The notes under the pieces are model-generated. The model ran no database searches. It was not told the origin of the DNA and saw nothing but the letters and a program-made list of their open reading frames with translations. A program made the position numbers and the translations under genes. DNA of 50,713 nt from Candidatus Oleimmundimicrobium sp. (lineage in GTDB: Bacteria > Actinomycetota > Aquicultoria > UBA3085 > Oleimmundimicrobiaceae): positions 1-50,713 of the forward strand of contig NZ_JAUSCH010000065.1 in the NCBI RefSeq assembly GCF_030651595.1, in the 5' to 3' direction. Within the stretch, counting starts at the first letter, position 1; each line of letters starts with the position of its first letter. Positions 43,254 through 50,713 of the stretch are shown here, one piece after another.

Positions 43254-43294
43254 TGCCCGCCGCCAGCCAGCCATTGGCTGGCTGGCGGCGGGCA
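43254..43294. repeat. 41-nt perfect GC-rich palindrome after proA
   Basis: Two 20-nt arms (43254-43273 and 43275-43294) are exact complements around a single T. The arms contain GCCCGCCGCC and AGCCAGCC. It begins 14 nt after the proA stop and could act as a strong hairpin at transcript level, though no U-tract follows. Confidence 0.8.
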
Positions 43295-43327
43295 TATAAT
43301 TAATGCTTAAACCACTGATTTGCTTGG

Positions 43328-43393: not shown

Positions 43394-43571
43394 GTTCATT
43401 TTCTTACTCGCCTGAGAAAACGAACCAAAAGAAGGGCGGCCGATCATTTTTTTTAACGGCTTAAAAATTTACGGCTTGCTTGGGCGCCTGCAGAACTCGC
43501 TCCGATAATATCGGGGCTCAAACAGCTTCGGCGCTTGTTCCAAGCAAATCTATTTTTAAGCCTAAAAATGA
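43394..43571 (+). other. Structured repeat element, copy A (candidate ncRNA or mobile element)
   Basis: Hairpin P1: 43394-43404 with 43415-43425 (11 bp, one A-C mismatch). A conserved linker with CAAAAGAAGGGCGGCCGATC follows (43426-43445). Long stem P2: GGCTTAAAAAT (43458-43468) with ATTTTTAAGCC (43552-43562), then TTGCTTGG (43476-43483) with CCAAGCAA (43540-43547), then GCGCC (43484-43488) with GGCGC (43530-43534). Inside, AGAACTCG and CTCAAACAGCTTCGG flank a hairpin GCTCCGAT/ATCGGGGC. It ends in CCTAAAAATGA. Copy B is at 50458-50713. Confidence 0.65.
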
Positions 43572-43616
43572 TATGGCAGATGGCAGATGAAAAATAAAAG
43601 GGTAAGGATTAAGGAG

Positions 43617-43880: not shown

Positions 43881-43920
43881 CTCCCTCCCTTGATGGGAGG
43901 GGATTAAGGGGAGGGTGAAG
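43881..43920. repeat. CCCTCCC hairpin repeat
   Basis: CCCTCCC (43883-43889) and GGGAGGG (43895-43901) form a 7-bp stem with loop TTGAT, followed by GATTAAGGGGAGGGTGAAG. It is GC-rich against an AT-rich background and unlike the CCTGCC family. Confidence 0.55.
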
Positions 43921-43954: not shown

Positions 43955-43975
43955 CCGTGCCTACCGGCAGGCAGG
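43955..43975 (-). repeat. CCTGCC-family unit, inverted
   Basis: The reverse complement equals the unit at 50552-50572 base for base over its 21 nt (CCTGCCTGCC...TAGGCACGG), so the unit exists in both orientations in this window. Confidence 0.65.
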
Positions 43976-46821: not shown

Positions 46822-46839
46822 AATTTGGAAATTAAATAA

Positions 46840-46960
46840 GTGGCTTTAAAGAGAAATAGTAGGCCTTAAACAGGAACTTAGAGAGCTGGAATGGCGAAAA
46901 TCAGTATCTGACCGGGTTGAATTCACCTTGGAGCTCGAATTCGAAAGTTATTTTTTTATT
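46840..46960 (+). promoter_or_regulatory. T-box-like leader, stem I
   Basis: The layout fits a T-box stem I: base helix 842-849 with 928-935 (7-8 bp with G-U pairs; numbers are 46xxx), AGTA at 46858-46861, the conserved AGAGAG bulge (46880-46885), an apical stem CTGG/TCAG (46886-46889, 46901-46904) with an ATGGCGAAAA loop, and ACCTTGGAGC after the specifier position. By alignment with known T-boxes the specifier would be TTC (46922-46924, Phe). I do not find a convincing TGGNACCGCG antiterminator sequence downstream; TGGTGAGCG at 46973-46981 is the nearest. The leader may be a decayed or atypical T-box. Confidence 0.55.
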
Positions 46961-47009
46961 AAGCTTCGCGTTTGGTGAGCGTTAAATCACCAAAAGAGAG
47001 CGAAATTTT

Positions 47010-47084
47010 GGGGATGTAGCTCAGTGGGAGAGCGCCTCCTTGGCGTGGAGGAGGTCGAGGGTTCAATCCCCTCCATCTCCACCA
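47010..47084 (+). tRNA. tRNA-Ala (anticodon GGC)
   Basis: Cloverleaf: acceptor GGGGATG/CATCTCC with the G3-U70 pair that identifies tRNA-Ala, D arm GCTC...GAGC, anticodon stem CCTCC/GGAGG with loop TTGGCGT (anticodon GGC), T arm GAGGG/CCCTC with TTCAATC, and an encoded CCA end. It lies between the T-box-like leader and leuS. Confidence 0.95.
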
Positions 47085-47154: not shown

Positions 47155-47213
47155 TATTAGTTTATCTACTTTGTGGATGGTGGTAGTTTATGCCAGTTTT
47201 TTTTGGAGGTACT

Positions 47214-49676
47214 GTGGGAAAATATGATTTTGCGAAGATTGAAGAAAAATGGCAAAAGAAATGGGAAGAATCAAAGATATATGAAGTTTCAGAAGACCCA
47301 TCATTAACTAAAAAATATATCCTTGAAATGTTTCCATATCCTTCGGGAAATATTCATATGGGCCACGTGAGAAATTACTCCATAGGCGATGTGCTGGCTC
47401 GCTATAACAGGATGAAGGGTTACAATGTTCTTCATCCAATTGGTTATGATGCTTTTGGTATGCCGGCCGAAAATGCGGCAATAGCTCATGGAATTCATCC
47501 CAAAAATTGGACTTTTAAAAATATCAAGACTATGCGAACTCAATTAAGAGGTTTGGGCTTAAGCTATAACTGGGATCGTGAAATCATAACTTGCGAGCCA
47601 AAATATTATAAATGGGGCCAGTGGCTATTTTTGCAGTTTTACAAGAGAGGTTTGGTCTATCGTAAAAAAGCTAAAGTAAACTGGTGTAGCTCATGTGAAA
47701 CGGTTCTTGCCAACGAACAGGTTGAAGGAGGAAACTGCTGGAGATGTGGTACTCTGGTCGAGCCACGAGAACTTACCCAGTGGTTCTTTAAAATAACTGA
47801 CTACGCTGAAGAATTATTAAATGACCTTAACAAGCTTTCTGGTTGGCCTGAACAGGTAAAGATTATGCAGAAAAACTGGATTGGCCGAAGCGAGGGAGCT
47901 TGGGTTAAATTTTCACTCAAAGACGGCAAGACCATTACCGTGTTTACAACTCGTCCTGATACTCTTTTTGGCTGCACCTTCTTTTTGCTTGCACCGGAAC
48001 ATCCACTTGTTGACGAGCTCATCAAAGGGACTTCTTATGAAGATGAAGTTATTAAATTTAGAGAAAAAGTTGCAAGAAAAACTGAGATTGACAGAACATC
48101 AGCTGAAATTGAAAAGAACGGCTGCTTTACCGGCGCCCATATCATAAATCCCGTAAATGACCGAAAGATACCGATTTGGGTTGCCGATTACGTTTTAATG
48201 GAGTATGGAACCGGAGCGGTGATGGCGGTTCCTGCTCATGATGAAAGGGATTTTGCTTTTGCCAAGAAATACAACCTTCCAATAGAGCCGGTTATTCAAC
48301 CGGCAGGTAAAGATTTTAGCGCTGGGCTCAATGAAGCATATACCGGCGAGGGAATAATGATAAATTCCGGTCAGTTTACCGGAATGGTTAACAAAGAAGG
48401 GATTAAAGCTGTAACTAAGTGGTTGAAGGAGCAAGATAAGGGCGATTTTGCAGTTAATTACCGTTTAAGGGATTGGTTAATTTCTCGTCAGCGTTATTGG
48501 GGAAATCCAATTCCCATGATTTATTGTGATAAATGTGGCGCGGTTCCTGTTCCCGAAGAAGATTTGCCGGTGGTACTTCCGGATGATGTGGAGATTACCG
48601 AAAAAGGCGGCTCCCATTTAGCTAAAAACGAGGCCTTTATGAATACAACTTGTCCAAAATGTTCCGGGTCTGCTAAAAGAGAAACTGACACCATGGATAC
48701 ATTTACTTGTTCTTCCTGGTACTATATTCGCTTCGCAAGCCCTCATGAAGAGAATGGTCCTTTTGATGTAAATGCGGCTAATTATTGGATGTCGGTTGAC
48801 CAGTATATCGGTGGCATAGAGCATGCAATTTTACATCTTCTTTACTCTCGTTTCTTTACGAAAGTTTTAAAAGATATGGGCCTTTGTAGAGCCGAAGAGC
48901 CGTTTACTAACTTGCTTACCCAGGGGATGGTCATAAAAGACGGAGCTAAGATGTCTAAGTCTAAAGGAAATGTAGTTGATCCAAACGAGATAATTAAGAT
49001 TTATGGTGCAGATACTGCCAGACTGTTCATCCTTTTTGCTTCTCCACCTAAAAAAGAGCTTGAGTGGAGCGACCAAGGGGTTCAAGGTTCTTACAGATTT
49101 TTAAACAGAGTTTGGAGAATCGTTGAGAGAAACATAGAAGCCTCAAAGAAGAATAAAAAAGTTGAAGTAGATGAAATTGACCGAGAATTTCAGAGGATAA
49201 TTCACCGGACAATCAAGAAAGTCACAAATGATATTGAACGTTTCAATTTAAACACGGCTATAAGTGCCACAATGGAACTGGTAAATGCCAACCATAAATA
49301 TTATGACGATAAAAACGAGGCAAATATAAATCCGGAAGTTTTAGCTGAAGCTAACGAGAAATTGTTATTGCTTTTGGCTCCCTTTGCTCCTCATATTACT
49401 GAAGAGTTATGGGAGATGATAGGGGAAACGAAAAGTATTCATCAAGCAAAATGGCCGGTTTTTGATGCCGAGCTTGCAAAAGCCGAAGAGATAGCCCTTA
49501 TCGTTCAAGTTAATGGTAAGATGAGGGATAAAATAACTGTCCCGGCCGACATAGAAGAGGAAGAGATGAAAAAAATTGCCCTTTCCAGCGGCAGACTAAT
49601 TCAATTTATCAAAGGGAAAGAAGTTGTTAAGGTAATAGTTGTTCCAAAAAAACTTGTTAATGTGGTTGTGAGATAA
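47214..49676 (+). CDS. leuS: Leucyl-tRNA synthetase
   Basis: A class I synthetase of 820 residues. The HIGH motif reads HMGH (48-51) in PYPSGNIHMGHVRNYS; KMSKS is at 579-583. The editing domain has FTTRPDTLFG and an AVPAHDERD site. Zinc-like knuckles CSSC and CWRC, then CDKC and CPKC, are present. I chose GTG 47214, just after GGAGGT, since the protein then begins MGKYDFAKIEEKWQKKW as homologues do; an ATG eight codons earlier has no ribosome site. lepB overlaps the stop by one base. Confidence 0.96.
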   Translation: MGKYDFAKIEEKWQKKWEESKIYEVSEDPSLTKKYILEMFPYPSGNIHMGHVRNYSIGDVLARYNRMKGYNVLHPIGYDAFGMPAENAAIAHGIHPKNWTFKNIKTMRTQLRGLGLSYNWDREIITCEPKYYKWGQWLFLQFYKRGLVYRKKAKVNWCSSCETVLANEQVEGGNCWRCGTLVEPRELTQWFFKITDYAEELLNDLNKLSGWPEQVKIMQKNWIGRSEGAWVKFSLKDGKTITVFTTRPDTLFGCTFFLLAPEHPLVDELIKGTSYEDEVIKFREKVARKTEIDRTSAEIEKNGCFTGAHIINPVNDRKIPIWVADYVLMEYGTGAVMAVPAHDERDFAFAKKYNLPIEPVIQPAGKDFSAGLNEAYTGEGIMINSGQFTGMVNKEGIKAVTKWLKEQDKGDFAVNYRLRDWLISRQRYWGNPIPMIYCDKCGAVPVPEEDLPVVLPDDVEITEKGGSHLAKNEAFMNTTCPKCSGSAKRETDTMDTFTCSSWYYIRFASPHEENGPFDVNAANYWMSVDQYIGGIEHAILHLLYSRFFTKVLKDMGLCRAEEPFTNLLTQGMVIKDGAKMSKSKGNVVDPNEIIKIYGADTARLFILFASPPKKELEWSDQGVQGSYRFLNRVWRIVERNIEASKKNKKVEVDEIDREFQRIIHRTIKKVTNDIERFNLNTAISATMELVNANHKYYDDKNEANINPEVLAEANEKLLLLLAPFAPHITEELWEMIGETKSIHQAKWPVFDAELAKAEEIALIVQVNGKMRDKITVPADIEEEEMKKIALSSGRLIQFIKGKEVVKVIVVPKKLVNVVVR

Positions 49677-50279: not shown

Positions 50280-50457
50280 TGGTTGTGAGCTAGTCATTGC
50301 GAGCGGAGCGCGGCAATCTCGTTTTAATCATAACGTTTGATTTTTACGTCTATTTTTTTAAAACTTAGTTTTATTAATTTATTTTTTTTGTGGGTTGTTC
50401 TTGGACTCTGGTTTGCCTCCCTATTCACTCGACTCTCTCATTGCGAAACTTTATTTC
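50280..50457. repeat. Spacer with the 28-nt GTCATTGCGAGCG repeat
   Basis: The repeat at 50293-50320 is the uninterrupted form of the composite repeat at 10060-10143. The remainder is T-rich and carries no credible gene; two overlapping open frames of about 100 codons that start here run through copy B and look spurious. Confidence 0.5.
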
Positions 50458-50713
50458 CTTCATTTTCTTACTCGTCTAAGAAAACGAAGCAAAAGAAGGA
50501 CGGCCGATCATTTTTTAAACAGCTCCAAAATAACGGTTGTTCAGGCGCCTACCTGCCTGCCGGTAGGCACGGCAGAACTCGTCAGACTAAACCATATCCT
50601 TCCCTTTGGCTTTTTAAACCAAAGCTTCCAACTATGTTGTAAGGCGGATATAAGCCTGACTCAAACAGCTTCGGCTTATTTCCTGAACAACCTATTTTGA
50701 AACCTAAAAATGA
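50458..50713 (+). other. Structured repeat element, copy B (reaches the window end)
   Basis: P1: CTTCATTTTCTT (50458-50469) with AAGAAAACGAAG (50478-50489). Linker CAAAAGAAGGACGGCCGATC as in copy A. P2: CAAAATA (50526-50532) with TATTTTG (50693-50699) and GGTTGTTCAGG (50535-50545) with CCTGAACAACC (50682-50692). AGAACTCG and CTCAAACAGCTTCGG flank a longer variable branch (GTCAG/CTGAC, ATATCC/GGATAT, CTTTGG/CCAAAG). A 21-nt CCTGCC-family unit interrupts it at 50551-50571. It ends in CCTAAAAATGA at the window edge. Confidence 0.65.
50552..50572 (+). repeat. CCTGCC-family unit inside copy B
   Basis: The 21-nt unit CCTGCCTGCC...TAGGCACGG lies between GGCGCCT and GCAGAACTCG, which are directly joined in copy A. 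The same unit occurs inverted at 43955-43975 and, with two changes, at 43328-43348. Confidence 0.7.

Follow-up and report, generated by a model that had tools for sequence, protein, structure and literature searches.

Integron attC sites are folded single-strand recombination sites in which structure and unpaired bases outweigh the sequence of the arms, and the insertion sequence IS608 has an established link to one replication strand. Dispersed palindromes of the REP, BIME and REPIN type are associated with RAYT transposases (Nunvar 2010, PMC2817692; Bertels and Rainey 2011, PMC3116915; Di Nocera 2013, PMC3733652). Here, a family of palindromic elements is described from two copies, A and B, in a 50,713-nt stretch of DNA (the window) from Candidatus Oleimmundimicrobium sp. 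(Actinomycetota; Aquicultoria); the window is one of the 142 contigs (contig 65) that make up a draft genome of 1.63 Mb. The element is a long, branched, gene-free palindrome that ends in an apical core composed of a helix, an invariant AACTC/TCARACA internal loop and a variable hairpin; it is dispersed, intergenic and oriented, present or absent by lineage, and patchily distributed over at least five phyla. With a probability of about 52%, both copies represent a non-autonomous mobile element of ~200-250 bp that acts as folded DNA and is moved by a putative enzyme supplied in trans.

Alignment of 122 cores showed that the unpaired AACTC and TCARACA strands are practically invariant and that a fixed G-C pair lies directly outside the loop; family-wide, the whole 12-base core stays the same while the surrounding sequence changes. 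The N-N′ pair occurs in all four Watson-Crick types (A-T 85, G-C 15, T-A 9, C-G 1; 4 failures), and double changes were found in six of the seven modelled pairs further out as well as in all seven of the inner hairpin, with 430 double-change cells observed and 148 ± 9 after shuffling. The covariation score of the whole structure was 0.523, compared to 0.151 when shuffled and at most 0.166 with one arm slid. The arms vary in sequence yet remain complementary, indicating that pairing, rather than sequence, is kept. A candidate GC:GC pairing of the core was rejected, as the aligned columns showed N-N′ pairing instead. Read on the complementary strand, the loop is TGTYTGA/GAGTT, which would put tandem G-A oppositions beside the inner stem, and the R position varies only in such a way that a G-T or G-C opposition persists there; this pattern is only a hint that recognition may involve the bottom strand. 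Outside the core, the P1 hairpin with its trailing CAAAAGAAGG recurs in copies from Aquicultoria, Burkholderiales, Bacteroidota and Patescibacteria, and is missing from the Omnitrophota copies inspected.

A preliminary description of the window, made from its letters alone, had recognised two copies with one fixed plan, whose stems differ in sequence and still pair. Both copies are present as described (Table 1), and the four double changes on which that description relied hold base for base: in P2, C-G (43479/43544), T-A (43481/43542) and G-C (43482/43541) of copy A are T-A (50540/50687), C-G (50542/50685) and A-T (50543/50684) in copy B, and the P1 end pair is G-C (43394/43425) in copy A and C-G (50458/50489) in copy B. 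Compared to dinucleotide shuffles, the RNA folds of copies A and B have z-scores of -4.4 and -4.7, equalled by 0 of 200 shuffles, and the DNA fold of copy A has a z-score of -4.0. The plan itself was correct, and its extent was drawn too narrowly: the outer stem, formed by GCCGATCATTTTT and AAAAATGATATGGC, runs beyond the tail described earlier; copy B, which the contig end cuts within the 3′ arm of its outer stem, contains a 21-bp palindrome; and pattern and DNA searches revealed ~24 full or partial copies in the host genome, several of them at contig ends.

Family counts rest on a covariance model trained on 19 cores, an approach proposed in the preliminary description, which recovered further copies whose stems covary. 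The core was detected in 5 of 5 sampled genomes of the window's family, 39 of 285 Omnitrophota, 9 of 250 Burkholderiales, 4 of 333 Patescibacteria and 1 of 297 Bacteroidota, as well as in 0 of 55 other Actinomycetota; copy number per genome ranges from 1 to >30. When named genomes were scanned for the exact pattern, the core was located in Aquicultoria metagenome-assembled genomes (MAGs), in Acidovorax and Variovorax isolates, in Omnitrophota and in Saccharibacteria, the named relatives that carry it being Candidatus Oleimmundimicrobium americanum and further MAGs of the Aquicultoria type (Actinomycetota); similar text in unrelated bacteria, mentioned in the preliminary description, was thereby confirmed. 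Pattern matches inside coding genes (L053, L064, L090, L099) were dismissed as chance hits. Both the patchy spread and a background close to zero among Bacteroidota and the other Actinomycetota speak against matches by chance, and the presence of the element in isolates (NZ_ records) shows that it is not a metagenome-assembly artefact. None of the 4227 Rfam families matched the element, and a literature search found no description of this repeat family, which is real and, as far as these searches show, undescribed. The family is filed here among small dispersed palindromic mobile elements, its dedicated mobility system being a putative one.

Almost all copies are intergenic in AT-rich hosts. 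In intervals between co-directional genes, the element runs with the genes in 66 cases and opposite to them in 16 (p 2e-8), a count that was obtained with a simple caller of open reading frames (ORFs) and left uncorrected for shared ancestry; such a bias is as expected of an element tied to one template strand. For Omnitrophota copies, the median distance from the upstream stop codon to the core is 157 nt, and several copies in the host genome (L003, L004, L013, L042) sit close behind a terminator-like hairpin and T-run of the upstream gene. Copy A stands singly between proA and nadD, and this interval is without it in all four family relatives that keep both genes, for which the simplest reading is a lineage-specific gain of copy A. 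Copy B lies downstream of a signal peptidase gene, within a GTGGGTTGTTC frame (at 50390) that is part of a larger surrounding repeat. At the corresponding site, a congener (G001) has another subtype within a similar GTGGGTTG frame, a second relative (G002) has no element and a third (G003) is cut by a contig end; the region is therefore a mosaic in which elements are nested in larger ones. Omnitrophota elements measure 199-249 bp and have sharp inverted ends (TGAATCTG..CAGATTCA), the sequences of which vary both between and within lineages, and covary; 31 of 38 copies lack a target duplication. In Burkholderiales, all 27 close pairs are arranged head-to-head in the same order, 283-419 bp apart, and copies elsewhere are mostly single.

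In the mechanism proposed here, the palindrome would act when folded, either as a hairpin in single-stranded DNA (e.g., the lagging-strand template) or as an extruded cruciform. A putative enzyme acting in trans would recognise the helix-flanked invariant loop, rather than the sequences of the arms, and move the element. The arms would then be free to drift only while they remain Watson-Crick complementary, a process that arm-to-arm copying may help.

Structural RNAs tolerate G-U as an intermediate, and do not tolerate A-C; the mismatches of a folded RNA should favour G-U. In the helices of the element, which were found on both strands, G-T and A-C mismatches number 176 and 177 overall (Omnitrophota 44:58, Aquicultoria 50:49, Burkholderiales 82:70). 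A wider union of pairs gave 349 G-T vs 313 A-C, with a Watson-Crick consensus in 206 of 215 helix pairs, and the ratio in ten tRNAs taken from these loci was 20:0, a small control for which the finder program rewards G-T. In each group whose copy number allowed the test, the antisense strand has the lower fold energy, and in Omnitrophota it also has the better z-score; in the host genome the sense strand is slightly favoured by z-score. Because G-T equals A-C and the antisense folds as well, complementarity is kept without consistent strand preference. Two DNA-level causes fit these data: the element works as folded DNA, or its arms are copied by template switching.

Template switching in DNA hairpins produces Watson-Crick double changes in one step, with no selection needed, and has been documented for RNA genes in a study that also restates the G-U intermediate route (PMC8794818). 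The preliminary description had argued from double changes to selection; the covariation stands, and the argument is weakened since template switching makes such changes without it. Taken by itself, this mechanism would reduce the element to a passive palindrome, which owes the complementarity of its stems to template switching or arm-to-arm copying and spreads by recombination and horizontal transfer with no enzyme of its own. The equality of G-T and A-C mismatches is as expected from arm-to-arm copying, and in one Omnitrophota genome adjacent inner-stem bases changed together, from CCCT/AGGG to CGGA/TCCG (L185 vs L281). However, this explanation is unlikely, as it does not account for a near-invariant AACTC/TCARACA over five phyla, the fixed order of the doublets or the orientation bias.

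It is quite improbable that the element is a structured RNA selected in the host, whether co-transcribed with the upstream gene (e.g., as a 3′-end stabiliser or terminator) or acting as a small RNA. The strong covariation of its helices, the stable folds of both window copies, the 66:16 sense orientation and the location just past the upstream stop codon would all suit such an RNA, but G-U is not in excess over A-C, the antisense folds as well or better, and the inverted doublets of Burkholderiales leave one core antisense. These three points leave the RNA, one of two readings offered in the preliminary description, unsupported; a single-stranded-DNA transposition substrate, its other suggestion, fits better and is not proven. 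In addition, copy A is missing at the same locus in four relatives, and Rfam contains no match.

In the search for a mobilising enzyme, genes for Y1 transposases were mapped in 23 genomes, and 31 Y1 loci were searched with 1.5-kb flanks, which yielded a single full-length core, next to a truncated Y1 match at the end of a contig, and one weak partial match. In its dispersed palindromes and head-to-head doublets the family is reminiscent of REPs, BIMEs and REPINs (PMC2817692, PMC3116915), and every Burkholderiales genome tested has one or two Y1 proteins, as a REP- or REPIN-type element mobilised by RAYT, a Y1 transposase, would lead one to expect. This origin is nevertheless highly improbable: no Y1 gene was found at E<=0.001 in carrier genomes G004, G345 (7 copies), G062, G063 and G358, all drafts for which absence is not absolute, and the element spans 200-350 bp rather than 20-40. 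The host genome's only TnpA/TnpB locus (C98) has no copy nearby. RAYT or IS605 was rejected as the mobiliser, given a single copy beside a Y1 match, itself truncated, and hosts in which no Y1 gene was found. A miniature inverted-repeat transposable element (MITE), i.e., a shrunken DNA-transposon remnant whose terminal inverted repeats are read by a DDE transposase and whose internal structure is accidental, would match the non-coding, multicopy nature of the element and its inverted ends in Omnitrophota, but can scarcely be reconciled with the missing target duplications or with conservation of the apical core while the ends differ and covary.

Other candidates were also rejected. The copies contain no ORF, and an autonomous version, whose inner branch would hold an ORF, was discarded after 63 core 5′ halves had been checked for a 3′ half; those lacking a standard 3′ half nearby have variant 3′ halves or lie at contig ends. 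Judged by eye, the product of a 246-aa ORF that lies between two copies (L328) appears to be an unrelated membrane-anchored protein. Carriage by phages or plasmids was dismissed on the basis of no phage match and two weak plasmid matches; the pattern also matched three viral contigs, and the covariance model gave two of these matches 28.5 bits.

Several observations weigh against a mobile element acting as folded DNA. Neither a mobilising enzyme nor an autonomous copy was found, and the evidence for insertion is synteny, not an exact empty site. Gene strand and GC skew coincide in the 33 loci examined, so the orientation bias is not assignable to replication as opposed to transcription. Part of the covariation may stem from template switching rather than selection, and an active single strand should show some G-T excess, of which there is none. 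Decay of inactive copies, which may be the majority, also equalises G-T and A-C; the mismatch test consequently weighs more against host-selected RNA copies than against RNA at an active source copy. A broader proposal, put forward here tentatively, is that the family constitutes a new class of mobile DNA, in which the helix-flanked AACTC/TCARACA loop is the only conserved sequence, movement occurs as folded DNA through a dedicated putative enzyme, and elements are passed between phyla.

Table 1. Features of copies A and B in the window
Feature	Position	Strand	Evidence
Copy A, complete element (P1 hairpin, linker, outer stem, P2, core, inner hairpin), proA-nadD interval	43394..43577	+	sequence, folding
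Copy A P1 hairpin, GTTCATTTTCTTACTC..GAGAAAACGAAC	43394..43425	+	folding; same hairpin and trailing CAAAAGAAGG in other phyla
Copy A outer stem, 5′ arm, GCCGATCATTTTT	43439..43451	+	folding
Copy A P2 and helix outside core, 5′ arm, GGCTTGCTTGGGCGCC	43473..43488	+	folding, covariation
Copy A core, 5′ side: N = A43492 (pairs with T43527), G (pairs with C43526), unpaired AACTC	43492..43498	+	122-copy alignment
Copy A variable inner hairpin, GCTCCGAT..ATCGGGGC	43499..43517	+	7/7 modelled pairs covary across phyla
Copy A core, 3′ side: unpaired TCAAACA (family TCARACA), then GC, N′ = T43527	43518..43527	+	122-copy alignment
Copy A P2 and helix outside core, 3′ arm	43530..43546	+	folding, covariation
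Copy A outer stem, 3′ arm, AAAAATGATATGGC	43564..43577	+	folding
Copy B, long inner branch, 3′ end cut by contig end	50458..50713	+	sequence, folding
Copy B P1 hairpin	50458..50489	+	folding
21-bp palindrome CCTGCCTGCCGGTAGGCACGG precisely inserted in copy B core, between GGCGCCTA and CAGAACTC	50552..50572	+	exact match
Copy B core, 5′ side, AACTC	50576..50580	+	sequence
Copy B core, 3′ side, TCAAACA	50661..50667	+	sequence

Where copy B carries the 21-bp palindrome, copies L004, L013 and L025 have an uninterrupted GGCGCCTACAGAACTC. This palindrome is present in either orientation, both in copy B and at 43955-43975 of the window, as well as in L012, L014, L029, L004 and L013; it appears to be inserted at exact points (core, P1 arm, 3′ arm) of otherwise uninterrupted elements, with no target duplication, and resembles the very small mobile repeats of cyanobacteria. 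A second hairpin insert of ~70 bp, ACGAAGGAATTTTGTGAAATCTAC..GAGATTTCATCGAAATTCCCGAGC, occupies the same linker point in L011 and L042 (C110 and C49 of the host genome). Other dispersed repeats, TCATTGCGAG..GGCAATCTC and CCCTTGATGGGAGGGGATTAAGGGGAGGG, are found at 50294-50320 and 43887-43915. Several palindromic families make up the mosaic of intergenic sequence here. Just past the proA stop codon, at 43254-43298, lies a long, perfect, GC-rich hairpin, GCCCGCCGCCAGCCAGCC..GGCTGGCTGGCGGCGGGC, which gave a chance match to an Rfam microRNA. A T-box-leader-like match lies at 46837-47084 (RF00230; 52 bits, E 1.9e-9, under the gathering score of 93); a tRNA-Ala(GGC) gene comes directly after it, and a leucyl-tRNA synthetase-like gene (47190-49676) is next. 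In Omnitrophota genome G219, a sub-threshold match to the Clostridiales-2 sRNA (RF02937; 38.5 bits, E 1e-5) was observed at L186 2026-2103, ~460 nt beyond a copy.

Actinomycetota, Omnitrophota, Burkholderiales, Patescibacteria and one Bacteroidota genome thus have in common a small non-coding core whose surroundings have all changed. If the element is indeed moved as folded DNA, it would be an addition to the few mobility systems that read structure, namely IS200/IS605 with RAYT and integron attC, and the core offers an exact bait in the hunt for the enzyme. The family also carries a warning: compensatory double changes are not in themselves proof of an RNA; here, the symmetry of the mismatches argues for pairing at the DNA level.

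Compared to known systems, the element is like Rfam structured RNAs in having covarying helices around an invariant internal loop, but it matches none of the 4227 families and its mismatches are symmetric between strands. With bacterial MITEs and small mobile sequences (PMC2229807), it shares a short, non-coding, multicopy, intergenic nature and inverted ends, and differs in lacking target duplication and in the conservation of the core rather than the ends. Like REPs, BIMEs and REPINs, it forms dispersed intergenic palindromes and head-to-head doublets with stems kept by complementary changes, and a tie to folded DNA is proposed; in contrast to REPs and REPINs, which are 20-40 bp long with a GTAG/CGTC head, it measures 200-350 bp, has a conserved apical internal loop and one core common to at least five phyla, and flanks no intact Y1 gene, with none found in some hosts. 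Hairpins and the absence of target duplication are features shared with IS200/IS605 ends and their non-autonomous derivatives, for which a link to one replication strand would be expected as well; unlike these, pairing spans the whole element rather than only subterminal hairpins, and the host's TnpA/TnpB locus (C98) is without a nearby copy. In contrast to the cassette arrays of integrons, the element occurs as dispersed single sites between ordinary genes and has a different conserved motif; by analogy, however, it may work like attC, with structure taking precedence over the sequence of the arms.
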